This document shows positions 3,829-60,219 of a stretch of DNA of 64,000 nucleotides, piece by piece. The stretch is from Alphaproteobacteria bacterium. Lineage in GTDB: Bacteria; Pseudomonadota; Alphaproteobacteria; UBA6615. Position numbers and translations under genes: made by a program. A model generated the notes under the pieces. It made no database searches and had not been told where the DNA came from. It was given only the letters and a program-made list of their open reading frames with translations. Position 1 is the first letter of the stretch. Each line of letters begins with the position of its first letter. The stretch covers positions 434,001-498,000 of the forward strand of contig JBDXCV010000003.1 in NCBI GenBank assembly GCA_039980135.1. Direction: 5' to 3'.

Positions 3829-3834
3829 CGCCGG

Positions 3835-7823: not shown

Positions 7824-7937
7824 CGACGGGACGCGTTCGGCTATCGGTTCCGCCTGGCGATTGTGAAAGACCGGAATAAAATTAAATCGAAATACGGCCC
7901 TTGCCGGGTGGCGACCGGACCCCCTACGGTGCGTTCA

Positions 7938-7952
7938 GTCTGGCCGTCAGAC
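7938..7952. promoter_or_regulatory. Small inverted repeat ahead of the GlcG-TctCBA genes
   Basis: GTCTG-GCCGT-CAGAC forms a 5-5-5 inverted repeat about 80 bp before the GlcG-like gene. It resembles the size of a GntR-type operator. No regulator gene is adjacent; this is a weak, by-eye call. Confidence 0.25.
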
Positions 7953-8030
7953 CTAAGCAATAACGTGCAACACTCGGCCGGAAATAAATGTGCCGCCTCG
8001 GCGGTGCATCGTCTGGGAGGACGAGCAAAA

Positions 8031-8468: not shown

Positions 8469-8513
8469 GCAAGACGTAAATCCAATAACCACAGAATCTG
8501 GGAGGATTCCAAC

Positions 8514-38290: not shown

Positions 38291-40207
38291 CTATTGCGCC
38301 GACGCGGCGCCGGTGTCGGGTGCGCCGGACTGAAATTCCGGCACCAGATGGGTCAACAGGCTGCGGCAGCTGTCATTGTTGTTCTCGCGCGCGGCGGCGC
38401 AGATCTCATCGATGGCACGCTCCAGAACTTCGCGGTCGGCGACGCGCGGCGTCGCGAGACGGATGGCGGCGTTGCCGGTCGGTGCCAGGCTCTCGGCGTC
38501 GTGGAAGAGCTCTTCATGGAGTTTCTCACCGGCGCGCAATCCGACATAGGTGATGTCTATATCCTCATGGGGTCGCTTGCCAGCGAGGCGGATCATCTGT
38601 TCGGCGAGGTCGAGAATTTTGACCGGCTCGCCCATGTCGAGCACCATGATTCCGCCGGCCGCCGTATTCTCGGATCGGCTGAGGGTCGAGGCCTGGAGTA
38701 CCAGTTCGACGGCCTCGCGGGTGGTCATGAAATAGCGGGTGATATCCGGGTGGGTCACCGTGATCGGCCCGCCGGCGGCGAGCTGGCGCTCGAACAGCGG
38801 CACCACCGAACCGGTCGAGCCCAGAACATTGCCGAACCGGACCGTCAGAAAGCGGCAGCCGTCTTCGCCGCGGGCGCGATCGAGCGCCTGGCAATAGCTC
38901 TCCGCCACCCGCTTGGTCGCGCCCATCGCGCTCGACGGGTTGACCGCCTTGTCTGTCGAAATCAGGACCATGATCCGGGCGCCATGCTCGTGGCACAGAT
39001 CAGCGACGTTGCGGGACCCGGCGATGTTGGTCTGCACGGCTTCGGCGACATGTTCCTCGACAATCGGGACATGTTTCAGGGCGGCGGCGTGGAAGACGAG
39101 CTCGGGTTTGAGCCCGGCGAAAACCGATGCCATGGCGGTCGGGCTGCGGACATCGGCGAGGTGGGCATGCCGGGTGATGTCCGGTGCCAGCTCGGCGATT
39201 TCGAGATCGATCGAGTAGAGATTGAATTCCGAGCTGTCGACAAGCGCGAGCTCGGCGGGTTCCAGTGCGACGATCTGGCGGGCGAGTTCGCCGCCGATGG
39301 TGCCGCCCGCGCCGGTAATCAGGACCCGACGACCGGCAACCAGAGTCTGCATGGCGGGGCGATCCAGGACCGCCTGGGGGCGACCCAGCAGGTCTTCGAC
39401 GGCAACCGGTTTTACCTCGATCTCGTCCCCCAGCCCGGCCTGGAATGCCGTGAGCCGCGGCAAGCGGGCCATGGTCATGCCCTGGGCCTCCGCCAGATCG
39501 AGCAGTTTCCGCATCAGGGCGGGATCGAGCCCGGCCTTTGTGACGATCAGGCGCTGGGGACGTTCGCCGCGCAGGGCAATCCGGCGCATGATCGCATCGA
39601 GATCATCGGGTGTGCCCAACACGGTCACGTCGCGTATCTGGCGACCGACGCGGCGGCCTTTTTCATCGAGCACACCGACGATCCGGTACGCGGCGCCGGG
39701 TTGGCGGCGAATGGCGCGGATGAAAGTCTCGGCCTCATCGCCCGCACCCATCAGGAGCACGGGAATGCCGGGTTTTCCGCTGCTGTCCGCCGAAAGCTCG
39801 AAATGCCGATCCTTGACCAGGCGGTAGATGAAGCGGGGCCCGCCGAGCAGGGCCATCAGGACAAACCAGTTGATCGCCGGCAGGGAGCGCGGCAGGAACT
39901 CCGACCGCGAGACGACGAACAGGATCAGGGAGAAAACCAGAACCGCCAGGGTCACTGCCTTGGTGATCTGGATCAGGTCGTTCATCGACGCGTAGCGCCA
40001 GATGCCCTTGTAGAGGCCCATGGGCAGGAAGATCGCGGCTGCGATGACCGCGAACATTGCCGTGCCCTGAAGGATGAAATCGATCGGCACGGAATCGATC
40101 GACTGTCCCATGCGCAGCCACAGCGACAATGGCAGCGAAACCGCCGCCATGAAGATGTCGTGCGCATAGGCGATATTCGCCCGACTCAGTCGAATTTTTC
40201 CGCGCAT
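38291..40207 (-). CDS. FlaA1/WbpM-like nucleotide-sugar 4,6-dehydratase (membrane-anchored long form)
   Basis: 638 residues: an N-terminal membrane part with four helices, a first nucleotide-binding-like domain (VLLMGAGDEAE near 150), then the extended short-chain dehydrogenase domain opening RVLITGAGGTIGGELARQ near 300. The triad in ISTDKAVNPSSAMGATKR is Ser-Met-Lys, as in UDP-GlcNAc 4,6-dehydratases such as WbpM, rather than Ser-Tyr-Lys. It makes 4-keto-6-deoxy sugars (precursors of QuiNAc, FucNAc or bacillosamine). Bordetella wlbL encodes a homologue next to wlbABCD. It is the last gene of the polysaccharide run. Confidence 0.92.
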   Translation of the reverse strand: MRGKIRLSRANIAYAHDIFMAAVSLPLSLWLRMGQSIDSVPIDFILQGTAMFAVIAAAIFLPMGLYKGIWRYASMNDLIQITKAVTLAVLVFSLILFVVSRSEFLPRSLPAINWFVLMALLGGPRFIYRLVKDRHFELSADSSGKPGIPVLLMGAGDEAETFIRAIRRQPGAAYRIVGVLDEKGRRVGRQIRDVTVLGTPDDLDAIMRRIALRGERPQRLIVTKAGLDPALMRKLLDLAEAQGMTMARLPRLTAFQAGLGDEIEVKPVAVEDLLGRPQAVLDRPAMQTLVAGRRVLITGAGGTIGGELARQIVALEPAELALVDSSEFNLYSIDLEIAELAPDITRHAHLADVRSPTAMASVFAGLKPELVFHAAALKHVPIVEEHVAEAVQTNIAGSRNVADLCHEHGARIMVLISTDKAVNPSSAMGATKRVAESYCQALDRARGEDGCRFLTVRFGNVLGSTGSVVPLFERQLAAGGPITVTHPDITRYFMTTREAVELVLQASTLSRSENTAAGGIMVLDMGEPVKILDLAEQMIRLAGKRPHEDIDITYVGLRAGEKLHEELFHDAESLAPTGNAAIRLATPRVADREVLERAIDEICAAARENNNDSCRSLLTHLVPEFQSGAPDTGAASAQ

Positions 40208-40293: not shown

Positions 40294-41352
40294 TCAATTC
40301 TTCGTCGCGTCGCGCGGGCCCGCAAGCCAGGCCAGGAGCAGGACGACCAGTATCCCCGCCGCGAGCAATGCGAGCCACGCCAACAGCGTGCCGGGGCCCG
40401 CCAGGACGCTAATCACCGCCAGGACGACCAACAGCAGGTTGGTGACCGCAATCGCGGTGCTGACACGGGCGTGGGAGAGGCCCTGCTTGATCGCCGCCTG
40501 GTAGAAATGATCACGATGGGCGTGCCAGAACTTCTCCCCCCGCGCAATCCGGCGGAACAGCGTGATGGTCGCGTCGGCGAGATAGTAGAGCGGCAGAATG
40601 GCCGCCGCCTGCCAGAGCCCGTTTGCCGCGAGCGAGAGCAACAGCCAGCCGAGCAGATAGCCGAGGGGCACGCTGCCGCTGTCGCCGAGGAAAATCCGCG
40701 CCGGGGGCCAGTTCCAGACGAGAAAGCCGATGGCCGCCGCCGCGACGGTGAGCGCCTGACCGTGGGTCTGGTCGAGGGGTTGCGAACCGACAACGCCGAT
40801 CAGGAAAAGCCCGACGCCGATCGCGACGGCCTCGACCCCGCTGATGCCGTCGATCCCGTCCATGAAATTGAACAGGTTCATGAACCAAACCCAGCCGATC
40901 GCCGCAACGAGCGCATCGATCGGGCCGGGCAGCAGACCCTGGAAAACCGCCCCTTCGATCAGGAATACACCGACCAGCGCCGCAAAAAACTGGGCGGCGA
41001 GCCGAGGTAGTGGCCCGATCGTCATGAGGTCGTCGATCCACGACACGCCGGCGAGCAGCAGGGCGGCCAGGGGGATCATCCATTGGGAAATCGCGGCACC
41101 GTCCGTCGGTGAAGAGGTGGGCAAGAAGAACGCGATGGCGACCCAGGCCGGCAACAGGGCCGCCAGAACACCCAGCCCGCCGCCGCGCGGTGTGGGGGCG
41201 TCGTGGGAGCTGCGTGCGTTGGGCCGGTCGAGGATGTCGTGGCGCAAGAGTTGAATCCGGACCAGCCCGACCAACGCGGTGGATGCGAGCGCCGTGGCGG
41301 CGGCGATGATAGCGAGAGTCCAGATCACGTCTTGGCTTCCACGAGGCGGCAT
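40294..41352 (-). CDS. Undecaprenyl-phosphate sugar-phosphate transferase (WecA/MraY-like GT4 family)
   Basis: 352 residues with about ten membrane helices. Family motifs are DRPNARSSHDAPTPRGGGLG, NLFNFMDGIDGISGVEAV, IFLGDSGSVPLGYLLG and HRDHFYQAA. Enzymes of this kind start glycan synthesis by transferring a HexNAc-1-phosphate to the lipid carrier. A GTG 24 bp downstream of the ATG is an alternative start. The gene lies next to the dehydratase, a pairing that is common in O-antigen and exopolysaccharide loci. Confidence 0.92.
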   Translation of the reverse strand: MPPRGSQDVIWTLAIIAAATALASTALVGLVRIQLLRHDILDRPNARSSHDAPTPRGGGLGVLAALLPAWVAIAFFLPTSSPTDGAAISQWMIPLAALLLAGVSWIDDLMTIGPLPRLAAQFFAALVGVFLIEGAVFQGLLPGPIDALVAAIGWVWFMNLFNFMDGIDGISGVEAVAIGVGLFLIGVVGSQPLDQTHGQALTVAAAAIGFLVWNWPPARIFLGDSGSVPLGYLLGWLLLSLAANGLWQAAAILPLYYLADATITLFRRIARGEKFWHAHRDHFYQAAIKQGLSHARVSTAIAVTNLLLVVLAVISVLAGPGTLLAWLALLAAGILVVLLLAWLAGPRDATKN

Positions 41353-41440: not shown

Positions 41441-42580
41441 TCAGGTCGTGCGCAGGCCGAGATGGTCGAGCTGTCGGTCGATCACGAGGCGTTCGTCATA
41501 CAGGCGGCGTCCACGTTCCAGTCCAGCGGCCCCCAGGGCCTGGCGGCGTGCGGGGTCCTGCGCCAGGGCTTGCAGGGCGCGGGCCAATGCGGCCGCGTCA
41601 CGGACCGGCACGAGCAGCCCGGTTTCCCCGTCGACAACTTCCTCGCGGCTGCCGCGAACATCGGTGGCCACGACCGGGAGCCCGGTCAGCATCGCCTCAA
41701 TGATGGAGCGCGGCATGCCTTCGCGGTGGGAGGGCAGGGTGAAGATATCGGCGGCGCGCATGAGGTCCGCCATGTCGTCGCGGTAGCCGAGAAAGCGAAT
41801 GCGGTCCCGCAAGGCAGGGTCTGCCTCGATCTCCCGGATCGCGTCGTTGATCCCTGCCGCATGGTCGCTGCTCAGCCGGGCGCCGACGGCCCAGAGTTCG
41901 GCATCCACATTGCGCATGGCGGAGACCAGTTCGCCATAGCCTTTCTCGGCGACCAGGCGCCCGGCCATGAGAATGACCAGCCGGTCGTCTGCGGTGCCGA
42001 TTGCCGCGCGGGTGGCGGAACGCGCCGCCGGATCGTCGGACGGCTTGAAGACCTCCGGGTCGCTGCCGTTGCCGATGGCCAGTATGTCGCCCGTCCGGCA
42101 CAGGCCGAGGCGTCGCGCCGTTCGGGCGTCTTCTTCCGACTGGGTCATGAGCGTGTGGGTGAACCGACCGGCGAACCATTCGGCCGCAATATGGGCCTGG
42201 CGGCGGGGCAGCGGCATGTTCTCGTGAAAGTAAAAACCGTGCGCGGTGTAGACGATCCGGGGCACACCGGCGCGGGCGGCGGCGAGACGCCCGACGAACG
42301 CCGCGACGGGCGTATGCACATGAACGATATCGAACTTCTCGCGGCGAAAGAGATCGCGAAGTGCCTTCCCGCCGCGCCAGTTGCGGGCCGGATTGGCGGA
42401 TCGTGTCAGCGGTACCGTTTCGATGCGAAACCCGTCTGCCCGGACTGACGCGATCAGGTTGCCGTCGGCGCAAACCCCAACGACGTCATGGCCCTGCTCG
42501 CGCATCGCCCGCATGAGCGGGTGCAGCAGATGGTAGAGCGTGAAGTCCACCGTACAGAGCTGACAGATCTTTTGCGGCAT
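41441..42580 (-). CDS. Glycosyltransferase family 4 protein
   Basis: 379 residues with the GT-B fold. The acceptor domain begins KICQLCTVDFTLYHLLHPLM, and the donor domain has the GT4 signature SHREGMPRSIIEAMLTGLPV with both glutamates of the EX7E motif. It transfers an activated sugar to the growing lipid-linked glycan at the cytoplasmic membrane face. Sugar and linkage cannot be predicted. The ATG start is well placed ahead of the first strand. Confidence 0.9.
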   Translation of the reverse strand: MPQKICQLCTVDFTLYHLLHPLMRAMREQGHDVVGVCADGNLIASVRADGFRIETVPLTRSANPARNWRGGKALRDLFRREKFDIVHVHTPVAAFVGRLAAARAGVPRIVYTAHGFYFHENMPLPRRQAHIAAEWFAGRFTHTLMTQSEEDARTARRLGLCRTGDILAIGNGSDPEVFKPSDDPAARSATRAAIGTADDRLVILMAGRLVAEKGYGELVSAMRNVDAELWAVGARLSSDHAAGINDAIREIEADPALRDRIRFLGYRDDMADLMRAADIFTLPSHREGMPRSIIEAMLTGLPVVATDVRGSREEVVDGETGLLVPVRDAAALARALQALAQDPARRQALGAAGLERGRRLYDERLVIDRQLDHLGLRTT

Positions 42581-42664: not shown

Positions 42665-43906
42665 CTAGGCCGGGTCGGGCGGTACGCCCGCTCGGGTCGG
42701 TGTCACCAGGGCCGTCATTACAATAGCGAACAATGCCAGGCAGGAAAGCCACCAGCCCTGCCAGATTCCGAAACTCAGCTCGGCGTTGACGAACGCCGCT
42801 GCCACGGCGGCGCATGCGGCCGACCGCTCGAACGTCCCCGCGACGCCGCGCCGGATTGCCAGAACGGCGCTGGCAAACAGGCCGGCGAGGATGAGGGCGC
42901 CGGGAACCCCGAGCTCGAGCCAGGCCTGGATGAGGGCGTTGTGGGGATGCAGGGGCAGGGCGTCGACTGCGCGGGATCCGAGATTGGGGGCGTCATCGAC
43001 GGAGACAATCTGCCCGCTGCCGACGCTGCGTGCCGCATCGAGCCCCCAGCCGATGATAGGCTGGGCGAGCACACGTTCGGAGGCAAACTCCCAGATCGCC
43101 ATACGATGCAGCTGCGAGAACTCGCTATACCCGAGACCGCGTACCAGATCCGTCACGATCGGTGTGAGTTCCGCGATGAAGGGGATCATGATGAGCGACG
43201 CGGCCACGGTCGCCAGCAATAGGGTGAATGCCAGGCGCGGCAGGAACCATGCGACGGCGAAGAATCCGGCGCCGACGATGAGCGCCAGGAAGGGTGAGCC
43301 GGGCTGGAGTTGCGAAATCACGAAACCCGACACCAATATGAGCACGGCAGCTCCCAACCAGCCGAAACGTCGCCAGACGGGAACGATGGCGACCCACGCG
43401 GCGATGGAAATCACGCTCGAGGCGCGGTTCAGTTCGAACAGATTCTTGACCGGATTTTTTTCGAAGCCGTTCAGGGCGCCGTGCACGAGGCCGCCGGTCG
43501 CCAGCTCGAACAGCATGAACAGCAAGCCGAAGGCGACGCCGGCGATGACAAAGGATTCGAGGGTCTTTCGGCCGGCCGGATCGAGGCTGACCGCCGCAGA
43601 CAGCAGGAAAATCGTACCGCCGGCGATCAGGAACAGGCGCAGGGCCTGCGAAGCGCTTCGATCCGGGACGATCGACCAGACCATGCTTATGGCACCCCAG
43701 ACCACGAGTGCGGCCAGAAGCCAGGTGACTGTCCGGTGCAGGCGCGGCCACTCGCCCCGACCTGCGCATCCGAGGATCGCGGCGAATGCCGCCAAGGCTG
43801 CAATGATGGAAAGCCAGAGGGGCTGCAAGGCCGCGACGGGAACAATTAAAACCGCGGCCACAGACAGGATGGCGTAGGCGGGAAGGTATCGCTGAAGGGC
43901 ATGCAT
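42665..43906 (-). CDS. O-antigen polymerase/ligase (Wzy/WaaL-type) membrane protein
   Basis: 413 residues with about 12 hydrophobic segments and a large periplasmic loop containing HPHNALIQAWLELGVPGALI, the motif of the Wzy_C / WaaL family. Such proteins join repeat units in the periplasm or ligate the glycan to lipid A core. Presence of a WecA-like initiator and glycosyltransferases favours Wzy-dependent synthesis. The ATG at 43904-43906 was preferred to an upstream in-frame codon. Confidence 0.85.
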   Translation of the reverse strand: MHALQRYLPAYAILSVAAVLIVPVAALQPLWLSIIAALAAFAAILGCAGRGEWPRLHRTVTWLLAALVVWGAISMVWSIVPDRSASQALRLFLIAGGTIFLLSAAVSLDPAGRKTLESFVIAGVAFGLLFMLFELATGGLVHGALNGFEKNPVKNLFELNRASSVISIAAWVAIVPVWRRFGWLGAAVLILVSGFVISQLQPGSPFLALIVGAGFFAVAWFLPRLAFTLLLATVAASLIMIPFIAELTPIVTDLVRGLGYSEFSQLHRMAIWEFASERVLAQPIIGWGLDAARSVGSGQIVSVDDAPNLGSRAVDALPLHPHNALIQAWLELGVPGALILAGLFASAVLAIRRGVAGTFERSAACAAVAAAFVNAELSFGIWQGWWLSCLALFAIVMTALVTPTRAGVPPDPA

Positions 43907-43965
43907 GGGTGACGCCCTTGTGCCGGAAAACACGTTAGGCGGCAAGGCGGGTCCCGGGGCGCCAA

Positions 43966-45066
43966 TCAGGCGCCGGAATTGGCAATATCCGCCAGATGTT
44001 CAGCGGTCCGCTGCGCGGCTGTGCCGCCGCCATAAATGTCGTCGGGCGCGTCGGTCGGTTTTTCACGCATAGCGTTTTCTACGCCGGAGACGATCGCGTC
44101 GGTGTCGCCCGGCGGGACGAGGCGATTCCAGCCGCATTCGACCAGCTCAACCCATTCGGTCTCGGTGCGCACGGTGATGCAAGGCACCCGGTGGAAGAAG
44201 GCCTCCTTCTGGACGCCGCCGGAATCGGTGACGATCGCGACCGCGTGGCGTTCGAGGGCCTGCATGTCGAGATAGCCGGCCGGCGGAATTCGCTGTACGT
44301 CCGAGAGGCGATCTTCGAGGCCGAACTCGGCCAGCCGCGCTGTCGTGCGGGGGTGGATCGGCATGACGACGGGCCGGTCATGCGCCAGCACGGACAAGGC
44401 ATCGGCGATGGCCGTCAGCCGCTCGCGCGAATCGGTGTTCTCGGCGCGGTGGATGGTGGCAAGGATGAAGGTCCCCGGCTCCCGCGAAAGTCGTGCGAGG
44501 ATATCGCTGTCCCGCTCGGCACGGGCACCATAGTAAAGCGACGCGTCATACATGACGTCGCCGACCAGATGGATGTGCCGGGGGTCGATGCCCTCACGGG
44601 CGAGATTCGTATCGGCGGTGACGGTCGGCGTGAAAAGATGCGCGCTCAGATGATCGGTCAGCACCCGGTTGATCTCTTCGGGCATGGCGCGGTTGAACGA
44701 GCGCATCCCCGCCTCGACATGGGCGATGGGGATGTTGAGCTTCGCGGCGGTGAGCGCGCCGGCCAGCGTGCTGTTGGTGTCGCCATAGACGAGCACCAGT
44801 CCGGGGTCTTCCTCGAGGAGGACTGATTCAAGGCCCTCCAGCATGCGGGCGGTCTGGCTGGCGTGGGACCCGCCGCCGATTCCCAGCGCGTGCTCGGGCG
44901 GGGCGATCTCGAGCTCGTCGAAGAAGATATCCGACATGTCAGCGTCATAGTGCTGGCCGGTATGGACGAGCACCTCGGCGATGCCGGAATGTTCGCGCAG
45001 CCGGTGCGACACGATCGCGGCCTTGATGAACTGGGGCCTGGCGCCGACGATGGTGACGATTTTCAT
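43966..45066 (-). CDS. wlbD: UDP-GlcNAc3NAcA 2-epimerase (WbpI/WlbD-like), WecB superfamily
   Basis: 366 residues of the nonhydrolysing UDP-HexNAc 2-epimerase family. The N-terminus IVGARPQFIKAAIVSHRLRE and the stretch VHTGQHYDADMSDIFFDEL resemble WbpI and WlbD more than WecB. VLVYGDTNSTLAGALTA and HVEAGMRSFNRAMPEEINR are the active-site blocks. It would turn UDP-2,3-diacetamido-glucuronate into the mannuronate form. This assignment depends on the upstream wlbABC-like genes, with which it is in one operon; a plain UDP-GlcNAc epimerase (WecB) is the alternative. Confidence 0.85.
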   Translation of the reverse strand: MKIVTIVGARPQFIKAAIVSHRLREHSGIAEVLVHTGQHYDADMSDIFFDELEIAPPEHALGIGGGSHASQTARMLEGLESVLLEEDPGLVLVYGDTNSTLAGALTAAKLNIPIAHVEAGMRSFNRAMPEEINRVLTDHLSAHLFTPTVTADTNLAREGIDPRHIHLVGDVMYDASLYYGARAERDSDILARLSREPGTFILATIHRAENTDSRERLTAIADALSVLAHDRPVVMPIHPRTTARLAEFGLEDRLSDVQRIPPAGYLDMQALERHAVAIVTDSGGVQKEAFFHRVPCITVRTETEWVELVECGWNRLVPPGDTDAIVSGVENAMREKPTDAPDDIYGGGTAAQRTAEHLADIANSGA

Positions 45067-45084
45067 TCGGGAATCCGGAGACGC

Positions 45085-46224
45085 TCAGGCCGCATTGTCT
45101 GCTGCGGCGGTGCGCACGGCGGCGATGATGCGGTCCTGGGTGGCCGCGTCGAGATAGGGATGCATCGGCAGGCTGATGACCTCCGCGGCTGCCGCGTCGG
45201 ACACCGGGATGCCGCCGGGTGCGAGCGGGTAGCCCGTGTAGGCGGTCAGGCGCGGCAGGGGGTTTGGGTAGTAGATCGCGGTCGGAATACCCTGATCCTT
45301 CAATGTTTTCTGGAGCGGGTCGCGGCCTGCAATGCGGATGGTGTACTGGGCCCAGGCGCTGACGGCGTCGTCGGCGATCACGGGCACGTCCGCGATATCG
45401 GCCAGCGCGTCGCTGTAGCGTTGGGCCACAGCCTGGCGCGCGTCGATCTCGGAACCGAGGATCGAAAGCTTCTCGATGAGGATCGCGGCCTGAATCGTGT
45501 CGAGGCGGCTGTTGGTGCCGATCACGACGTTGTCGTACTTGTCGCGTCCCTGGCCGTGCATGCGCAACGACCGAAGGGCTGCTGCGAGCGTGTCGTCATT
45601 GGTGAGAATGGCACCGCCATCGCCATAGGCACCCAGAGGCTTGGCCGGGAAGAAGCTTGTGGCCGCCATGCGACCATGCGCCCCCGCCGCCGTTGCCCCG
45701 AGGCGCGCGCCCATGGATTGGGCCGCGTCCGAGAAGACCCAGAGATCATGTTTGTCCGCGACTTCCTGAATCGCGGGATAGTTCGCGGGGTTCCCGAACA
45801 GGTCGACAGGGATGATGCCGGCCGGCTGCAGCGCCCCGTCGGCCAGGGTCGCGGCAATGGCGCTGTCCAGGCTATGCGGGTCCATATTGTAGCTGTCACG
45901 TTCGATATCGACGAACACCGGTGTGGCGCCCACCAGACAGACGATCTCCGCCGTCGCGGCAAATGTGAAGGCGGGCACAAAGACCGCGTCACCCGGTCCG
46001 ATGTCCAGAGCGCGCAACCCGAGCTGCAGGGCGTCGGTACCGTTGGCACAGGACACGACATGGGACACACCGTTCTCGGCGGCAAGCCGTTCTTCGAACG
46101 CCGCGACTTCGGGGCCGAGAATGAAACGCCCATGTTCGAGGACGCGGGCGATTGCCGCGTCGATCGCGTCGCCGATCCGGGCGCGTTGTGCCTGGAGGTC
46201 GATGAAGGGGATCGGTTCACTCAT
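45085..46224 (-). CDS. wlbC: DegT/DnrJ/EryC1 aminotransferase (WbpE/WlbC-like)
   Basis: 379 residues, a PLP-dependent sugar aminotransferase. MSEPIPFIDLQAQRARI is the typical start and the PLP lysine lies in FFPAKPLGAYGDGGAI near residue 195. In the wlb/wbp pathway it transfers an amino group to C3 of the 3-keto-uronic acid nucleotide. The start at 46222-46224 follows AAGGACAAATAAC; the frame upstream belongs to the acetyltransferase gene. Confidence 0.9.
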   Translation of the reverse strand: MSEPIPFIDLQAQRARIGDAIDAAIARVLEHGRFILGPEVAAFEERLAAENGVSHVVSCANGTDALQLGLRALDIGPGDAVFVPAFTFAATAEIVCLVGATPVFVDIERDSYNMDPHSLDSAIAATLADGALQPAGIIPVDLFGNPANYPAIQEVADKHDLWVFSDAAQSMGARLGATAAGAHGRMAATSFFPAKPLGAYGDGGAILTNDDTLAAALRSLRMHGQGRDKYDNVVIGTNSRLDTIQAAILIEKLSILGSEIDARQAVAQRYSDALADIADVPVIADDAVSAWAQYTIRIAGRDPLQKTLKDQGIPTAIYYPNPLPRLTAYTGYPLAPGGIPVSDAAAAEVISLPMHPYLDAATQDRIIAAVRTAAADNAA

Positions 46225-46225
46225 G

Positions 46226-46816
46226 TTATTTGTCCTTCGGAGCGACGGCCTGCAGGCCGGCCTCCGTTTCGCTGTAACGCCGGTCGGTGCGTGGGCAAAC
46301 ATACTGTCCCGTCGCGCCATCCCGGGTCAGCCGTTCGCCGGCATGACCGACCCAGCCGATCTGTTTCGCGGGCACGCCGACCACGAGTGCGTGGGGCGGA
46401 ACATCGCCCGCAACGACCGCGCCCGCGCCGACAAAGGCGAAGGCGCCGACCGTGCTGCCGCATATGATGGTGGCGTTCGCGCCGATGCTGGCGCCGCGCG
46501 CCACGCGGGTTTCGGACAGTTCGTCCATCCGGTTGATATCGGCGCGCGGCGTGTTGACGTTGGTGAATACCGCGGATGGCCCGACGAAGACGTCGTCTTC
46601 GAGGGTCACACCCTTGTAGACGCTGACATTGTTCTGAATCTTGCAGCGGTCGCCGATCCGCACGTCCGGGCCGGCCATGACATTCTGGCCGAGGGAGCAG
46701 CCGACGCCGATCCAGGTGCCGGTGATGATGTGGCTGAAGTGCCAGATGCGCGTGTCGTCGCCAATCTCGACGCCATCGTCGACATAGGCCGATTCATGAA
46801 TAACGGGTGCCGCCAC
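46226..46816 (-). CDS. wlbB: Left-handed beta-helix N-acetyltransferase (WbpD/WlbB-like)
   Basis: 196 residues with hexapeptide repeats ([LIV]GxxxxI units such as IGDDTRIWHFSHI, IGVGCSLGQNVMAG, IGANATIICGS). The C-terminus has YVCPRTDRRYSE, which is found in WbpD/WlbB relatives. It acetylates the 3-amino group of UDP-GlcNAc(3NH2)A. The start is GTG (46814-46816) with a strong AGGAGGACGGATC site; the open frame continues upstream inside the dehydrogenase gene but is not real there. Confidence 0.88.
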   Translation of the reverse strand: MAAPVIHESAYVDDGVEIGDDTRIWHFSHIITGTWIGVGCSLGQNVMAGPDVRIGDRCKIQNNVSVYKGVTLEDDVFVGPSAVFTNVNTPRADINRMDELSETRVARGASIGANATIICGSTVGAFAFVGAGAVVAGDVPPHALVVGVPAKQIGWVGHAGERLTRDGATGQYVCPRTDRRYSETEAGLQAVAPKDK

Positions 46817-46827
46817 GATCCGTCCTC

Positions 46828-47859
46828 CTAGATATTGCCGCCGCCCAGGGCGTTCTCGGCCGCGTGCAGAACCTGCAATACCCGCAGGCCCTCGGCACCG
46901 TCGGTGCGCGGGGTCGCGCCGGTTGCGACGCAGGTGAGGAAATGTGCGCACTCCTCGCGCAGAGGCTCCTGCTCGGTCAACGGGATGGCTTCGGCGTCGG
47001 CGCGTTCGGCCACCGGCGCCTGCCCGCCCAGCTCCACCTTGTGCGGGTACAGGACGAGTTTTCCGGCCCATGGCTGAGTATCGTCGAACACGGCCATGCC
47101 GTTCTCTCCGATCACGACGAGCTTCTGGTCCTTGAACGGATGCAGCCAGGAGACATAGATGTGCGCGTTGACCCCGTTGGGAAAGCCGAGATGGGTCGTC
47201 GTCGTATCCGCAACACCCGCCTGTAGATAGCTGTGTCCGATGGCGCTGACATTGTCGGGGGCGACACCGGTGAGCGACAGGATCATCGAAATATCATGCG
47301 GGGCGAAGCTCCAGAGGATGTTTTCCTCATGGCGCATTTTCCCGAAATTCAACCGGTTGGAATAGATGTACTGGAGCGTGCCCAGGCGGCCGTCCGATGC
47401 GAGTTCCTGCAGCGCGAGGAACGCCGGATGATATTGCAGCAGATGGCCCACCATGAGGGTTCGCGCCGCGGCTTTCGCCGCCGCAATCAGGCTTTCCGCA
47501 GTTTCGATATCCAGCGCCATGGGCTTTTCGACGAACACATGCTTGCCGGCCGCGAAAGCCGCGCCGGCCATCTCGCCATGGGTCGCCGCGGGGGTGGCGA
47601 TCGCAACGGCGGAAATATCAGGGTCGTCGAGGATATCCTGCCAGGAACGCGCGGTGGTACCGTGAGCCTGCGCCATGACGTCGGCCGCCGCGGCATTCGC
47701 GTCACAGACCGCATCCAGCGCCCCGAGTTCCGCGAAGTTCCGGACCAGATTGCGGCCCCAGTAGCCGCAGCCGGCGACCGCGATGCGGACGGCAGAGATG
47801 TCGGCATTTGCTTCGGACGATGGCATCGATGGTTCACCCTTGCTTGTGCCGCCGGTCAT
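46828..47859 (-). CDS. wlbA: Gfo/Idh/MocA dehydrogenase (WbpB/WlbA-like UDP-GlcNAcA 3-dehydrogenase)
   Basis: 343 residues. A Rossmann domain (IAVAGCGYWGRNLVRNF) and the EKP motif VEKPMALDIETAESLI mark the family; the MVGHLLQYHPAF segment is characteristic of WbpB/WlbA. It oxidises C3 of UDP-GlcNAc-uronic acid with NAD. The start overlaps the preceding glycosyltransferase stop (ATGA at 47856-47859); an internal ATG at 47824-47826 with an AAGGGTGA site is the alternative. It is the first wlb-type gene in the direction of transcription. Confidence 0.88.
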   Translation of the reverse strand: MTGGTSKGEPSMPSSEANADISAVRIAVAGCGYWGRNLVRNFAELGALDAVCDANAAAADVMAQAHGTTARSWQDILDDPDISAVAIATPAATHGEMAGAAFAAGKHVFVEKPMALDIETAESLIAAAKAAARTLMVGHLLQYHPAFLALQELASDGRLGTLQYIYSNRLNFGKMRHEENILWSFAPHDISMILSLTGVAPDNVSAIGHSYLQAGVADTTTTHLGFPNGVNAHIYVSWLHPFKDQKLVVIGENGMAVFDDTQPWAGKLVLYPHKVELGGQAPVAERADAEAIPLTEQEPLREECAHFLTCVATGATPRTDGAEGLRVLQVLHAAENALGGGNI

Positions 47860-49064
47860 GATGCGTGGCCTTTGGCTTCCAGAAGCATTTCGTACAGCCG
47901 TGTATAGGCGTTCGTACAGGCCTCCAGTGAATGAAGTTCGCGTGCGCGCGCCTGCCCGGCCTGCCCCATCGCCGCGCGGCGCGCCGGGTCACGCACCAAA
48001 GTACGGATCGCCGTGGCGATCGCGCTCGAATCATTCATCGGCGCCACAAGCCCGGTAACGCCGTCGGCGACCGCCTCTGCCGTGCCGCCAGCATCGGTCA
48101 CGACCATGGGCAAACCGGCGGCCATGCTCTCGAGCACGCTGTTCGGCGACCCTTCCTGGTGGGAGCAGAGCAGGCCCAGATCGCTCGATGCGAGGACATC
48201 GGCAATATTGGCCTGGCCGCCGAGAAATCGGATATGGGATGCGATGCCAGCCTGTGTGGCCTGTGCTTCCAGTGTGGTGCCGATGCCGTCATCGCGGCCT
48301 GCGAGCAAGAGCCGCCAGTCGTCGGGCATCGCGTCCGCGCATAATGCCAGTGCGTCGATGAGGTCGGCATGGCCCTTGTACGGAATCAGGTTCGCGACGC
48401 AGGTCATCACGAGTGCCTCGTCGGACAGATCCAGTTTCGCCCGCGCTTGCGCCTTCGGGATCGGGTCGAACATTTCATCCGGGACACCATTGCGGATGAC
48501 ATGCAGGCGCGTGTCGGGAACGCCTTCGGCGCTGAGTTCGTGCCGTACCGCGTCGCTGTTGGCTACCAGGGCCGTCATGCGCCGGTGCAGAAACTTCTCC
48601 AACCGGGCGACCCAGGGGCGGCCGAATTGATAATTATTCAGGCTGCGCCGGCTCATGGTGAGGCGTGGGTGGCGGAGCAGCCATGCCGTCAGACCCCCGA
48701 GAATATAGGCCTCCGGCAGAAAAAAATGGACGATGTCCGGTCGCCAGCTGCGAATCTGCCGCCCTATGTTGATGCAGGCCGCGAGTTGGCGCAGGGGTGA
48801 GGGCCGCCAGGCGTGCGTGTTGAAAACCGGAACGCCGGCGTCGCGCAAACCCTGGTCGAGGACAGCCTGTGGTCGTGCGGTGACGATCCGGATGTCGAAG
48901 CCGCTCGCACGCAGGCGGGGATACACGGTGGCGATGTGCTTCTCCGCGCCACCCACGGCCAGCAGCGGTACGACCACGAGCACGCGCGCCGCGCGCGGCG
49001 AATCGTCTCGAATGCCAGCTTGTTTCGAGGGTGCCGGATGTGAATCTGTTAGGCTGTCGTTCAC
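47856..49064 (-). CDS. Glycosyltransferase family 4 protein
   Basis: 402 residues, GT-B fold. VVVPLLAVGGAEKHIATVYP starts the acceptor domain and HQEGSPNSVLESMAAGLPMV is the EX7E donor-site motif. It heads the wlbABCD operon and overlaps wlbA, so it probably handles the sugar that the module makes or a neighbour of it. The start is uncertain: the GTG at 49062-49064 lies in a palindrome and a later GTG near the first strand is possible. Confidence 0.87.
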   Translation of the reverse strand: MNDSLTDSHPAPSKQAGIRDDSPRAARVLVVVPLLAVGGAEKHIATVYPRLRASGFDIRIVTARPQAVLDQGLRDAGVPVFNTHAWRPSPLRQLAACINIGRQIRSWRPDIVHFFLPEAYILGGLTAWLLRHPRLTMSRRSLNNYQFGRPWVARLEKFLHRRMTALVANSDAVRHELSAEGVPDTRLHVIRNGVPDEMFDPIPKAQARAKLDLSDEALVMTCVANLIPYKGHADLIDALALCADAMPDDWRLLLAGRDDGIGTTLEAQATQAGIASHIRFLGGQANIADVLASSDLGLLCSHQEGSPNSVLESMAAGLPMVVTDAGGTAEAVADGVTGLVAPMNDSSAIATAIRTLVRDPARRAAMGQAGQARARELHSLEACTNAYTRLYEMLLEAKGHAS

Positions 49065-49082: not shown

Positions 49083-49853
49083 GTGCGGACGTTATTCGAT
49101 ATCTTCGTGGTCTGGCCGATGCCGGCGCTCTGGGTTTTGGTGCCGGGGGTCATTCTGTTGCGCCGGCGGATCGGGCGGCTGCTTGTTCTGCTGGGGGGAA
49201 TCTCGCTCCTCGCCGGCACGACCCCGTTCGTTGGAAACGCCCTTCTGGGCATACTCGAGCGCGGGGCCCCCATGTTCGATGCCAGTACGATGTCGGCGGA
49301 AAAATTCGACGCCATCATCGTGCCCCTGGCGGGTGCGTATGAAGATCCGGCGGGCCGTTGGTGGCCTTTGCCCGGTTCGGTCGATCGCACGGTTCGTGGC
49401 CAGCAGGTGCAGGCGGAGACGGGTTTTCGGTTGATCATCCTCGGCGGCGCACCGCTTCCCGGACAGACCGAACCGGAGGTCGTCGCACTCCAGCGCGTCA
49501 TCACGCTTGGCCCCGAGACAGTGGTCGAATCCACGGCGCGGAACACCTTCGAGACCGCCCGGGCGGTCTCCGGAATGTTGCAGGGTCCGGCGTTCGCCGG
49601 ACGTTCGCCCCGGGTGGTCCTTGTTACCGGCGGGTCGCATGTGATGCGCATGGCGGCGTCGCTGCGCCGGTTCGGGATCGATGTGGCGGCGGTGCCGCCG
49701 CGCCGGTACGAGGATGTGAGGATCGCGCGCAATTTCTGGCTCGACCTTGTGCCGAGCGCGCGGGGTGCGGGGCGTGTGCGCCGCGCCGCGCATGAATTCA
49801 CGGGCATTGGCCTGTATCTCGTCACCGGGCGTATCCGGCTGCAGGATCTGTAG
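49083..49853 (+). CDS. YdcF/SanA-like DUF218 membrane protein
   Basis: 256 residues, the only plus-strand gene in the polysaccharide locus. Two N-terminal hydrophobic segments (FDIFVVWPMPALWVLVPGV and LLVLLGGISLLAGTTPF) anchor it, and the DUF218 domain shows AIIVPLAGAYED, ESTARNTFETARAVSGML and VVLVTGGSHVMRMAASLRRF. This ElyC/SanA family contributes to envelope integrity and glycan-lipid handling in E. coli. I prefer GTG at 49083 (GGAG upstream) over GTG at 49065. It overlaps the asnB tail by 32 bp on the opposite strand. Confidence 0.85.
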   Translation: MRTLFDIFVVWPMPALWVLVPGVILLRRRIGRLLVLLGGISLLAGTTPFVGNALLGILERGAPMFDASTMSAEKFDAIIVPLAGAYEDPAGRWWPLPGSVDRTVRGQQVQAETGFRLIILGGAPLPGQTEPEVVALQRVITLGPETVVESTARNTFETARAVSGMLQGPAFAGRSPRVVLVTGGSHVMRMAASLRRFGIDVAAVPPRRYEDVRIARNFWLDLVPSARGAGRVRRAAHEFTGIGLYLVTGRIRLQDL

Positions 49854-51807
49854 CTGTCGTGCGGGGTTCCGCGCGCCATGCCTCGAACATCAGGACCGGC
49901 CACAACAGGTATTGATGGTTGCGGCTGCCGGCCAGGTGCTCGTGCCAGATGGCGGTGATGGCCCCGGCGTCGATAATTTCGCTCTCCCGCAGACGTTGCG
50001 GTGACAGCAGGGATTCCGCCCATTCACGCAGGTCACCGCGCAACCAGTCGCCGACAGGAACGCCGAATCCCATCTTGGGCCGCTCGAACATTTCGCGCGG
50101 GACGTGGCGCGCGAGCACTTCGCGCAGGATCCACTTTCGGGTACCGCCGCGTATCTTCTGCGACATCGGCAGCCGCCATGCGAAGGCGTAGAGCGCATGA
50201 TCGAGATAGGGCACGCGACTTTCCAGGCTGACGGCCATGCTGGCCCGGTCGAGTTTCACCAGGATATCGTCGGGCAGGTAGCTGATCGCGTCCAGCAGCA
50301 TCAGTTGCTCACTGCGCGACGGCAGCGCGGGCCAGGATTCGGGATCGTCGACAAGGTGGCCGGGCATGCCGGCCCCCGGCACCGCGCGTTCGGGTTTCTT
50401 CCATTGGGAGACGAGGCGGGCATAGATCGCCGCGAAATCCCGCGCGTCCAGCACTTCCGCCAGCTTGTGCAGCTTGTCGCCGAACTGGGCCGGCCGATAA
50501 CGCCCCGGGATCATCGCGGCCAGCCTGTCCCAGTGCCGGGGTGCGACGGATTCAAGCCCGCCCCGCATCAGCCGGCGCAGCGCCGTCGGGACCGGGCCGA
50601 AGGCGCGTGCCAGGTTGTTGGCCCATGTGTAGCGGTTGTACCCGCCGAAGACCTCGTCGCCGCCGTCCCCCGACAGGCTGACCGTCACCTGTTGGCGCGC
50701 CAGCTGCGAGACGAGATAGGTCGGGATCTGGGAGGAATCGGCGAATGGCTCGTCATACATCGCCGGCAGGGACGGAATGACCGCCTGGGCGTCTGCCGGG
50801 GTCACCATCAGTTCGGTGTGGTCCGTTCCCAGGTGCCTGGCGATCTCGGCCGCCGCGTCGGCCTCGTTATAGTCGGCCTCGGAAAAACCGATCGAGAAGG
50901 TCTTGATCGCCCGGTCGCTCAGCCCCTGCATTGTTGCGACGACCGCCGTCGAATCGATGCCCCCTGACAGGAACGCGCCGAGCGGGACATCGGACACCAT
51001 GCAGGCGCCAACGGCGCGCTGGAGTTCCGTCTCGAGGGCGGAAACCGCATCGGTATCCGGCAGGTTCAACGGATCGTGTGTACCGGCCATTGCGGTCCCG
51101 GCGGCAGACCAGTAGGCGACGGGTTCGGGCAGGGCGCGCCGTTCGACCGCGGCGGTGTCGATCGTCAGTATCGTTCCCGGCAGGAGCTTCCAGCAGCCGG
51201 GATGAATCGTGTGGGGGGCCGGGATCATCGCGAAGCGCATTAGTTGCGTCACGGCCGACGGATCGATCGCGGTGTCGAATCCCGGCAGGCCCGTCAGCGC
51301 CTTGAGTTCGGAGCCGAATGCGAGATTTTTCCCGGCCCAGCCATAGTAGAGCGGCTTTTGCCCGAACCGGTCGCGCGCCAGTTGCAGTGTCCGGGTCTCC
51401 CGGTCCCACAGGCCAAAGGCGAACATGCCGTTCGCGTCGGCCAAGGCCGCCTCGAGCCCGAAAGCCGCGATGGATTCGAGCAGAGCTTCGGTGTCCGAAC
51501 GGGTGCGCAGGCCGACGCCCCTTTCCGACAGGCGCTTGCGCAGCTCCTCGAAATTGTAGATCTCGCCGTTATAGACGATCACATAACGCCCGCAGGCAGA
51601 GACCATCGGCTGGCGCGCGCCGGCCGAAAGATCGATGATCGACAGACGACGGTGCCCGAAACCGACGCCGGCTTCCGGGTCGGCCCACGCGCCACTGTCG
51701 TCGGGACCGCGATGCACCAGGGTCGATGCCGCGGCTTGCGCCAGCCCGGTCAACCGGGCTGCCGAGTATCCCTCATGGGGCGCGAACAAGCCCGCGATTC
51801 CGCACAT
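49822..51807 (-). CDS. Asparagine synthase (glutamine-hydrolysing)-type amidotransferase 1
   Basis: 661 residues with a class II glutamine amidotransferase domain (MCGIAGLF, catalytic Cys2; VYNGEIYNFEELR) and an AsnB-type synthetase domain (FLSGGIDSTAVVATM near 280, SLSGDGGDEVFGGYNRYTW). True AsnB makes asparagine, but relatives in glycan loci amidate uronic acids or form other amides. Being the last of a long minus-strand glycan run, it is likely a glycan-modifying enzyme. The start at 51805-51807 exposes the required N-terminal cysteine. Confidence 0.9.
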   Translation of the reverse strand: MCGIAGLFAPHEGYSAARLTGLAQAAASTLVHRGPDDSGAWADPEAGVGFGHRRLSIIDLSAGARQPMVSACGRYVIVYNGEIYNFEELRKRLSERGVGLRTRSDTEALLESIAAFGLEAALADANGMFAFGLWDRETRTLQLARDRFGQKPLYYGWAGKNLAFGSELKALTGLPGFDTAIDPSAVTQLMRFAMIPAPHTIHPGCWKLLPGTILTIDTAAVERRALPEPVAYWSAAGTAMAGTHDPLNLPDTDAVSALETELQRAVGACMVSDVPLGAFLSGGIDSTAVVATMQGLSDRAIKTFSIGFSEADYNEADAAAEIARHLGTDHTELMVTPADAQAVIPSLPAMYDEPFADSSQIPTYLVSQLARQQVTVSLSGDGGDEVFGGYNRYTWANNLARAFGPVPTALRRLMRGGLESVAPRHWDRLAAMIPGRYRPAQFGDKLHKLAEVLDARDFAAIYARLVSQWKKPERAVPGAGMPGHLVDDPESWPALPSRSEQLMLLDAISYLPDDILVKLDRASMAVSLESRVPYLDHALYAFAWRLPMSQKIRGGTRKWILREVLARHVPREMFERPKMGFGVPVGDWLRGDLREWAESLLSPQRLRESEIIDAGAITAIWHEHLAGSRNHQYLLWPVLMFEAWRAEPRTTATDPAAGYAR

Positions 51808-51811
51808 GGAG

Positions 51812-52546
51812 TCAGCCCTCTCCGGTCTTTTCAAGCACGGCGAACAAACGAAATCCCATGAGTGGCCCGAGGATCGGGCAGATCAGGCGTTCGAACCCGA
51901 TCAGCGTCGGCGCGAGTATGGCGGGCAGCGCGCTCCAGGACCTGAAGCCGCCTGACAGGGGGTAGGCGAACAGGCTGAGCCAGGTTTTTTGCAGCAGCCG
52001 CAGGTTCGGGTGGGTGGCGGCGAGGCGGTGCCGGTCACGGCCGAACAGGCGGGTGGGGAGCGCCTGGTTCCCCTCGAACGGGTCCTTGGCAGGCGGCGGA
52101 CTCGGGTCGAGCGGGTCTTCGTGCATGTCCACCGGTTCGTCATGGAACAGGCGAAAGAAGATCAAACTCAATGGCGTGATCCCGGGTTCGACCATGATGA
52201 CGCGGCCACCGGGCCTCAGCACCCGTTCCGCTTCGGCGAGGAAACGGGCCGGGCGGGCGATGTGGTGGAGCACGTCGACCATCACGATGTTGGCGAAACA
52301 GGCATCGGCGAACGGCAGCGCCTGGGCGTCGCAAACCGTGTCGAGCCAGGCGGCGGGGACGATGTCGGTGGACACCACGTCCCGGGCGAAGTCCTTCATG
52401 TTGCCGGAGCCGCCGCCGATCTCGAGGGTCGGTCCGGCGACACAGGCGGCCCTCATCCGGGCGTAGTAATCCGTATAAACCGCGCGCAGGACGGGTTTGT
52501 CCGACCAGATCGCACGATAGTCGGCGGGTCTCAGTTCGGCATCCAT
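51812..52546 (-). CDS. SAM-dependent methyltransferase (type 11)
   Basis: 244 residues; the cofactor fold shows GPTLEIGGGSGNMKDFARDV then VVSTDIVPA, ANIVMVDVLHHIARPARFL, and RPGGRVIMVEPG. A C-terminal stretch rich in aromatic and hydrophobic residues (SLFAYPLSGGFRSWSALP) may contact the membrane. The acceptor is probably a sugar or lipid-linked glycan. The start at 52544-52546 lies 10 bp after the previous gene; the next gene begins 4 bp later. Confidence 0.85.
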   Translation of the reverse strand: MDAELRPADYRAIWSDKPVLRAVYTDYYARMRAACVAGPTLEIGGGSGNMKDFARDVVSTDIVPAAWLDTVCDAQALPFADACFANIVMVDVLHHIARPARFLAEAERVLRPGGRVIMVEPGITPLSLIFFRLFHDEPVDMHEDPLDPSPPPAKDPFEGNQALPTRLFGRDRHRLAATHPNLRLLQKTWLSLFAYPLSGGFRSWSALPAILAPTLIGFERLICPILGPLMGFRLFAVLEKTGEG

Positions 52547-59093: not shown

Positions 59094-59094
59094 C

Positions 59095-60219
59095 TCAGAC
59101 AACTGCCTTTCTGCCAGTATCGTCGGCAGGTAGCAGCGTTTCCTCGATCATGCGGGCGAAGCGCGCGGCGAACAATTGCCCGGCCTCCGGGCCGCTGACG
59201 TGGCGCAGATACTCGTCCTGGCCGTGCGCGGCGATCGCGCTGGCGCTCTGTCGGTCGTCTTCAATCTGCGTCAGTACATCATCCAGGTCGGTGAGGTCCC
59301 AGCGAAACGTGCGGATGGTCTCGCCGTCGCGATACATATCGGGCCAGGTTTCGAGGTGCCGCATGTCCGGCTTGACGAGCAGACCGCCTGTCACGAAGAC
59401 CTCGAAATCCTTCAGCGTGATCTCGCCGAGCCCGAAGGGCGAGAGGACCGCGCGACTTGATTTGAGCTCGGCAAAGTACCCGCCCCGGCGAAGCTTGTCG
59501 GAACGTATCCGGCTCGCCAACCGGTCACGGATAAGCCGCCGCTGATGGGCCACACTGTTGCGCGTATAGCCGATACCCATGCGACAGGACAAAGCGATCT
59601 GACGTGGTGCGTCTGCCGGCCGCGCGGCCCGGGGTTGCCCGAGAAGGCAGGAAAACGGCAGGCGCCCGTAAAGCGCCATGCGTGCGGGCCCGAAGCGGGA
59701 ATAGTCGGCCAGGCCGGAGTTCCAGCCCAGGCGGATGCGTTCGAGCAGCGCCGGGTCGTCGATCTGTGGCGTATCGGTGGCCTGGTCGTCGGTCACCCCA
59801 TCTTCGCGGTGGTAGAAGTCGGCGTAGGCGCGGCGCGCATACATCGGGCGCAGATAGGCCGCACGGTCGCGCAGCAGCTGGCTCTTGAAGTAGCGGCGCA
59901 CCAGCGGCAGCACACCACCGACGACCCAGCCCGCGCTGTCGGTCGAGTCGTACCAGGCAAGTGTGATACCGGACGCGGCGAAGCCCGCCAGCGCATCCTG
60001 CACGAAGGCGAGTTGGCCACGGACGGGGCCCTGGAAATGCTTGCTGTCCACAAGCAGGACGTCGCACGCCGTCAATTCACTTTCGACACGGTCGAACGTG
60101 CGAACCGAAATGCCGGCCTCCGCCAGGGCGCGCCGGTGCATGATGAGCGGGTAGAGCAACGCCCGCGCATTGGGCGCCTTGAAGCCGTCCGAGAGGACGT
60201 GGACGCGGCGGGCGGTCAT
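59095..60219 (-). CDS. Putative glycosyltransferase-like protein of uncertain family
   Basis: 374 residues, not firmly recognised. A Rossmann-like start (RVHVLSDGFKAPNARALLYP) and a donor-domain-like end with LSPFGLGEITLKDFEVFVTG and GGLLVKPDMRHLETWPDMY resemble exostosin and GT1-type acceptance of a UDP-sugar. The FEVFVTGGLLVKP segment takes the place of the usual EX7E motif. It is translated next to the GT4 gene (ATGA overlap) and the asnB copy, so membership in the glycan pathway is fairly sure. Confidence 0.65.
   Translation of the reverse strand: MTARRVHVLSDGFKAPNARALLYPLIMHRRALAEAGISVRTFDRVESELTACDVLLVDSKHFQGPVRGQLAFVQDALAGFAASGITLAWYDSTDSAGWVVGGVLPLVRRYFKSQLLRDRAAYLRPMYARRAYADFYHREDGVTDDQATDTPQIDDPALLERIRLGWNSGLADYSRFGPARMALYGRLPFSCLLGQPRAARPADAPRQIALSCRMGIGYTRNSVAHQRRLIRDRLASRIRSDKLRRGGYFAELKSSRAVLSPFGLGEITLKDFEVFVTGGLLVKPDMRHLETWPDMYRDGETIRTFRWDLTDLDDVLTQIEDDRQSASAIAAHGQDEYLRHVSGPEAGQLFAARFARMIEETLLPADDTGRKAVV

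Follow-up and report, generated by a model that had tools for sequence, protein, structure and literature searches.

Two described systems come closest to the locus reported here. One is the known pathway to a diamino uronic acid, encoded by wlbABCD in Bordetella, in the gene order that we take to be A-B-C-D, and by WbpA-B-E-D-I in Pseudomonas aeruginosa; one class of WbpB/WlbA enzymes is reported to regenerate NAD+ from NADH by itself, using 2-oxoglutarate. The other is the GnnA/GnnB pair, which converts uridine diphosphate N-acetylglucosamine (UDP-GlcNAc) to UDP-GlcNAc3N for 2,3-diamino lipid A. In the latter GnnA is described as oxidising UDP-GlcNAc, and the A. ferrooxidans enzyme is reportedly specific for this substrate.

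In this work we analyse a stretch of 64,000 nucleotides from an alphaproteobacterium of the UBA6615 lineage (contig JBDXCV010000003.1, positions 434,001 to 498,000), hereafter the window. It carries a four-gene module that an initial annotation had read as a complete wlbABCD-type set. The module shares with the Bordetella and P. aeruginosa systems the set of activities, a WlbB/WbpD-type acetyltransferase and a WlbD/WbpI-type epimerase with uronate-type residues, and with Bordetella also the gene order. It differs from them in that the dehydrogenase comes from another clade, the aminotransferase lies in a branch containing GnnB-type enzymes, the cluster has no C6-dehydrogenase, and most of the relatives that we examined fuse the dehydrogenase to the acetyltransferase. 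GnnA is the closest characterised structure to the window dehydrogenase, and the aminotransferases of the two systems are intermixed in our tree; however, the dehydrogenases form sister clades, with an aspartate at position 184 in GnnA types and a serine in the window type, and GnnA-type loci list neither a WlbB-type acetyltransferase nor an epimerase within about 1.5 kb of flank. We propose that the module probably converts the uronate UDP-GlcNAcA to UDP-2,3-diacetamido-2,3-dideoxy-D-mannuronic acid (UDP-ManNAc3NAcA) by way of a third type of C3-dehydrogenase, one of the GnnA branch with an Asp-to-Ser change at position 184.

Results

The four-gene module

The minus strand holds four consecutive, closely spaced genes between 47859 and 43966. 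In the direction of transcription they encode a dehydrogenase, a hexapeptide acetyltransferase, a DegT aminotransferase and a 2-epimerase. As the initial annotation had it, all four open reading frames (ORFs) lie inside 43966-47859 in this order. They do not look like chance frames: matches in Pfam or the Protein Data Bank are strong for the aminotransferase, the epimerase and the acetyltransferase, and the dehydrogenase is a GFO_IDH_MocA protein.

46828..47859, minus strand: Gfo/Idh/MocA dehydrogenase of the GnnA branch, in the WlbA slot (343 amino acids; GFO_IDH_MocA match; K112, H188, and S184 in the motif WSFAPHD)
46226..46816, minus strand: WlbB/WbpD-type hexapeptide N-acetyltransferase (196 amino acids; GTG start at 46816)
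45085..46224, minus strand: DegT-family sugar aminotransferase, in the WlbC slot (379 amino acids; ATG start at 46224; in the branch containing GnnB-type enzymes)
43966..45066, minus strand: WlbD/WbpI-type non-hydrolysing 2-epimerase (366 amino acids; A16, Y94, W305 and catalytic D96)

The acetyltransferase GTG lies 11 bases past the dehydrogenase stop codon, and the two genes are in different frames. An AGGAGG that overlaps this stop codon is the likely ribosome-binding site of the acetyltransferase gene. A single base separates the end of the acetyltransferase gene from the start of the aminotransferase gene. The program-listed ORFs of the acetyltransferase (46226-47071) and the aminotransferase (45085-46320) start too far upstream. 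Labels of the form L### denote the individual loci or sequences that we compared.

Descent of the dehydrogenase

The dehydrogenase had been called WlbA-like, a reading that we reject. Against solved chains it reaches just 46 bits with WlbA 3q2k and 44 bits with 3q2i, and its best sequence matches are 3c1a (133 bits), a Magnetospirillum oxidoreductase with 36% identity, and the GnnA chain 7bvj (96 bits). In other genomes, proteins that occupy this slot score 626 bits to WbpB 3oa2, or 557 bits to WlbA 3q2i and 525 bits to 3q2k, so both known types are recovered and told apart by this search. The best NCBIfam model is the archaeal UDP-GlcNAc 3-dehydrogenase NF040723 (147.6 bits), far below its cut-off of 450. 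The window's own genome holds no WbpB or WlbA orthologue (best matches 28 and 93 bits), and in all searched genomes of the same genus (6) and the same family (17) the best match to the dehydrogenase stays below 92 bits.

The trees separate these types with support. Among 128 dehydrogenases, WbpB (16 rows, support 100) and WlbA (10 rows, 93) fall outside the set of window-type and related sequences (102 rows, 97). A further tree, of 68 rows, from which WbpB was left out for its very long branch, divides 50 window-type, near-relative and GnnA-type rows from 10 WlbA rows and eight paralogues of the own genome (97/95). In this tree the window types form a sister clade to the GnnA types and do not fall inside the GnnA clade. 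Together with L182, L183, L199 and L202, four sequences without a WlbB-type acetyltransferase, they make up one group (99/97); inside it the window type by itself is only weakly separate (75/52). 'GnnA type' and 'GnnB type' are labels of this analysis, the query being L193, a 319-residue dehydrogenase that adjoins a GnnB-type aminotransferase. An aminotransferase is listed alongside in 15 of its 28 GnnA-type relatives, and for one of these, L217, the best solved match is GnnA itself (113 bits).

An AlphaFold2 model of the dehydrogenase (mean predicted local distance difference test score 90) finds GnnA 7bvk as its best fold match (Z 39.4, 1.6 Å over 300 residues). The next entry has Z 36.6 and WlbA 3q2k Z 33.9; GnnA thus leads by only 2.8, since many other sugar dehydrogenases lie at Z 34-37. 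WbpB is not among the 50 entries listed, which makes this comparison uninformative about it either way. K112 and H188, which we take to be the catalytic lysine of the EKP motif and the following histidine of this superfamily, are invariant in 54 aligned window-type proteins and common to WbpB, WlbA and GnnA types. By sequence, then, the dehydrogenase is of a GnnA-branch type and is the orthologue of neither WlbA nor WbpB.

Fusion and fission

An acetyltransferase-based search of 398 genomes of the phylum gave matches in 86 at 1e-20 or better, and we read the surroundings of the best 41 places after the window's own (all E 8.4e-58 or better). Here the dehydrogenase adjoining the WlbB-type acetyltransferase is of the window type in 13 places, WbpB in 16, WlbA in nine, and absent in three. 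Dehydrogenase and acetyltransferase form a single ORF in all 13 window-type places (one of which, L138, is identical in sequence to L035 of our named set) and in none of the 25 WbpB or WlbA places.

A larger sample comprised 97 core window-type rows drawn from two collections; it excludes two duplicates, five distant rows and L050, which is broken by a stop codon within its dehydrogenase part. The dehydrogenase is fused to the acetyltransferase in 85 of these rows. Six are real splits: the window, L040, and L062, L085, L095 and L099, the last four with overlapping genes. As for other rows, L060 was not counted as fused but continues into acetyltransferase sequence at its contig end, L052 and L092 stop at a contig end, and no WlbB-type acetyltransferase is listed adjoining L182, L183 or L033. 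In the 128-row tree L040 groups with three fused rows (a group of four, support 100), so its split looks like fission. The split in the window may be the fission of a fused gene as well.

The four functions also recur together elsewhere; for example, fusion, aminotransferase and epimerase follow one another in this order at L079, L146, L166 and L175. L034, from Chelatococcus albus, is another fused relative. Four plasmid records hold dehydrogenases 48-56% identical to that of the window. Fusion to a WlbB-type acetyltransferase was seen in just one of them, from Azospirillum ramasamyi (WP_111068228.1), and no such acetyltransferase was found in the other three records. The fused protein is annotated simply as 'Gfo/Idh/MocA family oxidoreductase', with no mention of its acetyltransferase half. 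Our literature search, which covered titles and abstract openings and had most subscription papers outside its coverage, met no description of a fused dehydrogenase-acetyltransferase protein.

Some loci in this collection are unusual in other ways. The fused gene at L043 is on a contig of a metagenome-assembled genome labelled Bifidobacterium breve, probably a mis-binned contig. In addition to the fused enzyme, L048 and L067 have another GnnA-branch dehydrogenase past the aminotransferase (at 7751-8746 and 2894-3895, respectively), whose residue 184 is Asn. At L163 (3735-9188) a C6-dehydrogenase, WbpB, an acetyltransferase and an aminotransferase come first, then another acetyltransferase (46%) and a dehydrogenase of the GnnA branch; possibly two 3-amino sugars are made from this single locus.

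Residue 184

The dehydrogenase types differ at the position four residues before His188. Residue 184 is Ser in 95/95 window-type proteins, Asn in 16/16 WbpB and 10/10 WlbA, and Asp in 28/28 GnnA-type proteins (query included). The alignment also puts Asp here in solved GnnA and in 3c1a. The four sequences without a WlbB-type acetyltransferase that group with the window type (L182, L183, L199 and L202) have Asp184, as do L163, L184 and L185, and also L248, which adjoins a distant acetyltransferase. From these counts the acidic residue has been lost in all three types tied to a WlbB-type acetyltransferase, which suggests that Ser184 marks a separate switch of the window-type dehydrogenase toward a uronate substrate.

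The other three enzymes

The acetyltransferase is of the WlbB/WbpD type by sequence, as had been proposed. Its best solved chain is 3mqg (218 bits; the next has 118), presumably WlbB. Seven residues (G43, Q44, Q61, N62, N63, V83 and C119) are identical in 26/26 acetyltransferases of WbpB or WlbA loci and in 91/91 of window-type loci, whereas each of them is shared by only 0 to 6 of 17 more distant acetyltransferases. Of the positions at which 25 or more of the 26 WbpB/WlbA-locus proteins agree, the window protein departs at just three. V78 is Cys in that set and in 89 of the 91 window-type rows; M97 is Lys in that set, with 58 Lys and 29 Met among the window-type rows; and G157 is Ser in that set, where window-type rows have 46 Ser, 35 Cys and 10 Gly.

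The epimerase (PF02350, 1.6e-103) matches the Thermus thermophilus 2-epimerase of UDP-2,3-diacetamido-2,3-dideoxy-glucuronic acid (UDP-GlcNAc3NAcA) at 455 bits, 4neq (a UDP-GlcNAc 2-epimerase) at 300 and Escherichia coli WecB (1f6d) at 149. Thoden et al. (2023; PMC10622841) describe Trp307, Ala18 and Tyr96 as adapting the T. thermophilus enzyme to UDP-GlcNAc3NAcA. By alignment the window equivalents are W305, A16 and Y94, with numbering two lower. We compared these residues in 30 epimerases, the window's included. All 20 others that score above 300 bits, three of them from WbpB loci, have the Tyr and the Trp; 18 of them also have the Ala, and the other two (L097 and L146) have Ser in its place. 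A paralogue in the own genome, L002, has V, V and R at the triad, and another, L003, falls below the cut-offs of the comparison. The protein passes the WecB model TIGR00236 (314 bits, cut-off 210); we nevertheless reject WecB, as the residues and the solved relatives point to WlbD. The epimerase is thus, by sequence, of the WlbD/WbpI type that the initial annotation had named. In L262 an unannotated piece (9045-9464) lies after the aminotransferase and just before transposition genes. It matches residues 1-140 of the window epimerase at 65% identity and may be an interrupted epimerase gene.

The reading of the aminotransferase as WlbC-like stands in part. It is a DegT protein (PF01041, 1.6e-101) whose solved matches are 4qgr (451 bits), WbpE 3nyu (351) and perosamine synthase (164). 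We rejected a perosamine type at this last score, and a PseC type at 218 bits against a cut-off of 423. Neither of the groupings that had been named as speaking against the wlb reading, with WecB for the epimerase and with perosamine enzymes for the aminotransferase, was found. What does not stand is a place with the main WbpE clade. In a tree of 113 aminotransferases the window falls in a branch of 78 rows (support 96) that contains 42 of the 54 window-type partners, all 14 GnnB-type enzymes and only three of the 25 rows labelled WbpE (L141, L142 and L191), and is thus outside the main clade of aminotransferases from WbpB/WlbA loci. The aminotransferases that partner window-type dehydrogenases are not one clade in this tree (23 changes). 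4qgr is also the best solved match (418 bits) of an aminotransferase beside a GnnA type, and the structures 4qgr and 3c1a may become nameable in function.

A source of UDP-GlcNAcA

Three UDP-sugar 6-dehydrogenases pass the Pfam cut-off in the own genome. The first is best matched by the UDP-glucose type (TuaD, 549 bits, cut-off 700) and another is more divergent. The remaining one, TviB-like, lies at 546093-547394 of the same contig (C3 in our labels), 64 kb from the module, and its best match is the TviB UDP-GlcNAc 6-dehydrogenase model at 388 bits, below the curated cut-off of 592. The protein shares 64% identity with a C6-dehydrogenase encoded next to the fusion in L047. This TviB-like gene may supply the UDP-GlcNAc 6-dehydrogenase step that the module is missing.

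Of the 61 window-type loci with flanks of 3.5 kb to either side, 21 have a C6-dehydrogenase within 4 kb; among the 34 of these that have a close aminotransferase the figure is 19. WbpB and WlbA loci, with up to 6 kb of flank, have one in 19 of 25 cases, and none is listed in the 28 GnnA-type loci within about 1.5 kb of flank; the flank lengths differ, so the three frequencies are not strictly comparable. A 'nucleotide sugar dehydrogenase' is directly upstream in all three annotated plasmid loci, and the fourth plasmid record, unannotated there, gave no C6-dehydrogenase match.

Neighbouring genes

Five further genes on the same strand surround the module.

47856..49064, minus strand: glycosyltransferase of family 4 (GT4), whose 3' end overlaps the dehydrogenase start; a probable member of the same operon
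42665..43945, minus strand: O-antigen ligase-like membrane protein (Wzy_C), the first gene past the epimerase
41441..42580, minus strand: GT4-family glycosyltransferase
40294..41352, minus strand: WecA/WbpL-type phosphoglycosyltransferase (Glycos_transf_4)
38291..40207, minus strand: WbpM-type UDP-sugar dehydratase (Polysacc_synt_2; PF02719, 348 bits)

The dehydrogenase start is overlapped by a GT4 gene, and ligase-like, GT4, WecA-type and WbpM-type genes follow on the same strand, so by its spacing the whole run from the GT4 gene to the WbpM-type dehydratase looks like one surface-polysaccharide operon. A dehydratase of the WbpM type beyond the module had been noted before and is real, though it lies 3.8 kb past the epimerase rather than 3 kb, with the ligase-like, glycosyltransferase and WecA-like genes in between. 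We rejected it as a member of the four-step route: it belongs to a separate sugar branch. The G+C content of the module (0.652) is nearly that of the window (0.642), and composition is therefore uninformative on recent foreign DNA.

Two asparagine-synthase-like amidotransferases lie in the same polysaccharide region (49822-51834 and 57246-59102, minus strand), and a third protein (62612-63937, minus strand) matches Asn_synthase weakly (42 bits), with no glutaminase domain listed. WbpS presumably belongs to this amidotransferase family. Its described target is the uronic acid in a sugar of the Wbp pathway (PMC7468200), so, with these genes nearby, an amidated sugar might be made here. A link to exosortase and PEP-CTERM was considered and dropped: the two asparagine-synthase-like genes match TIGR03108 below its cut-off, and the exosortase family has no match in the genome. 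Adjoining the window, L009 (contig C3, 498001-517000) encodes three sulfotransferase-family proteins and an MBOAT acyltransferase, and the gene next to the TviB-like dehydrogenase resembles CysD, judging its translation by eye. With these sulfotransferase-family and CysD-like genes a sulfated polysaccharide is possible.

Discussion

From the gene content, descent, fusion pattern and diagnostic residues we infer the following route. The TviB-like C6-dehydrogenase would supply UDP-GlcNAcA, and the GnnA-branch enzyme, which depends on nicotinamide adenine dinucleotide (NAD), would oxidise its C3. The aminotransferase, using pyridoxal phosphate, would then aminate C3, the acetyltransferase would N-acetylate the new amine, and the epimerase would invert C2 to give UDP-ManNAc3NAcA for a surface polysaccharide. 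Since the dehydrogenase groups with GnnA and the aminotransferase with GnnB types, the first two chemical steps would be carried out by enzymes that are not orthologues of WlbA or of the main WbpE clade. We regard this route with its third-type dehydrogenase as the best explanation of the data and as fairly likely to be right. The product, which the initial annotation had already proposed, is likewise probable, and is supported by the types of the epimerase and the acetyltransferase.

Several observations weigh against this explanation. Among characterised enzymes the dehydrogenase is closest to GnnA, whose substrate is UDP-GlcNAc and not the uronate, and the aminotransferase groups with GnnB-type enzymes. 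No C6-dehydrogenase stands beside the window module, nor within 4 kb in 40 of the 61 window-type loci with full flanks or in 15 of the 34 with a close aminotransferase. The pattern at residue 184 is a correlation, and its contact with C6 is a prediction. Nor is this residue a clean marker, since L183 has Asp184 and yet adjoins a C6-dehydrogenase; in addition, the paralogues in L048 and L067 carry Asn184, the plasmid match L264 carries Cys184, and L261 and L262 carry Ser184 without a WlbB-type acetyltransferase. The epimerase of one WbpB locus (L148) lacks the triad, as do both of those from WlbA loci (L159 and L173). Lower-scoring epimerases of the window-type loci L050 (its second), L075 and L087 (its first) are also without it, and the other epimerase of L050 has a gap at the Trp position.

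Alternatively, the dehydrogenase and aminotransferase would act as GnnA and GnnB do, on UDP-GlcNAc, and the module would lead through UDP-GlcNAc3NAc to UDP-ManNAc3NAc with no oxidation at C6. The grouping of both enzymes, the archaeal UDP-GlcNAc 3-dehydrogenase as best NCBIfam model and the distant or missing C6-dehydrogenases favour such a route, but the epimerase has the residues of a uronate-using enzyme, the acetyltransferase has those fixed in WbpB/WlbA loci at all but positions 78, 97 and 157, and 21 of the 61 loci do have a C6-dehydrogenase at hand; we consider it unlikely. The same final product could also be reached in another order, by amination and acetylation of C3 on UDP-GlcNAc, a later oxidation of C6 and then epimerisation. 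While this reconciles a GnnA/GnnB-like pair with a uronate-type epimerase, the acetyltransferase signature equals that of WbpB/WlbA loci, whose substrate is already a uronate, and we know of no C6-dehydrogenase for UDP-GlcNAc3NAc, though no search for one was made; we give this order little credence.

That the module is a plain wlbABCD set, with an ordinary WlbA/WbpB orthologue and no difference from Bordetella, is hardly credible: gene order and the functions of the neighbouring genes agree with it, but 3q2k gives 46 bits to the window dehydrogenase against 525 to a WlbA-type protein, and the trees contradict it with separate, supported clades. It is very improbable, too, that the gene is really fused in the window and only looks split through a sequencing or assembly error. 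The 85 fused rows among 97 would lead one to expect a fusion here, but the AGGAGG over the stop codon, the GTG 11 bases on and the different frames of the two parts look like those of two genes, and real splits occur in five other genomes, four with overlapping genes.

The pathway itself is already known; what is new is the variant with a GnnA-branch dehydrogenase, an enzyme that recurs in fused form. We see about an even chance for the wider claim that this is a third, independently evolved UDP-GlcNAcA 3-dehydrogenase, which moved from UDP-GlcNAc to UDP-GlcNAcA in the GnnA branch with an Asp-to-Ser change at the position where WlbA and WbpB have Asn, became one bifunctional protein with a WlbB-type acetyltransferase that several bacterial phyla now carry, and was split again more than once, probably also here. 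If true, evolution has found three answers to the key C3-oxidation step toward this rare diamino uronic acid; the third of them occurs widely in alphaproteobacteria and delta-type bacteria, yet can be concealed by annotation. It would also help to predict which of these proteins serve uronic-acid antigens and which serve lipid A, and would offer a single residue as a candidate for the switch between UDP-GlcNAc and UDP-GlcNAcA.

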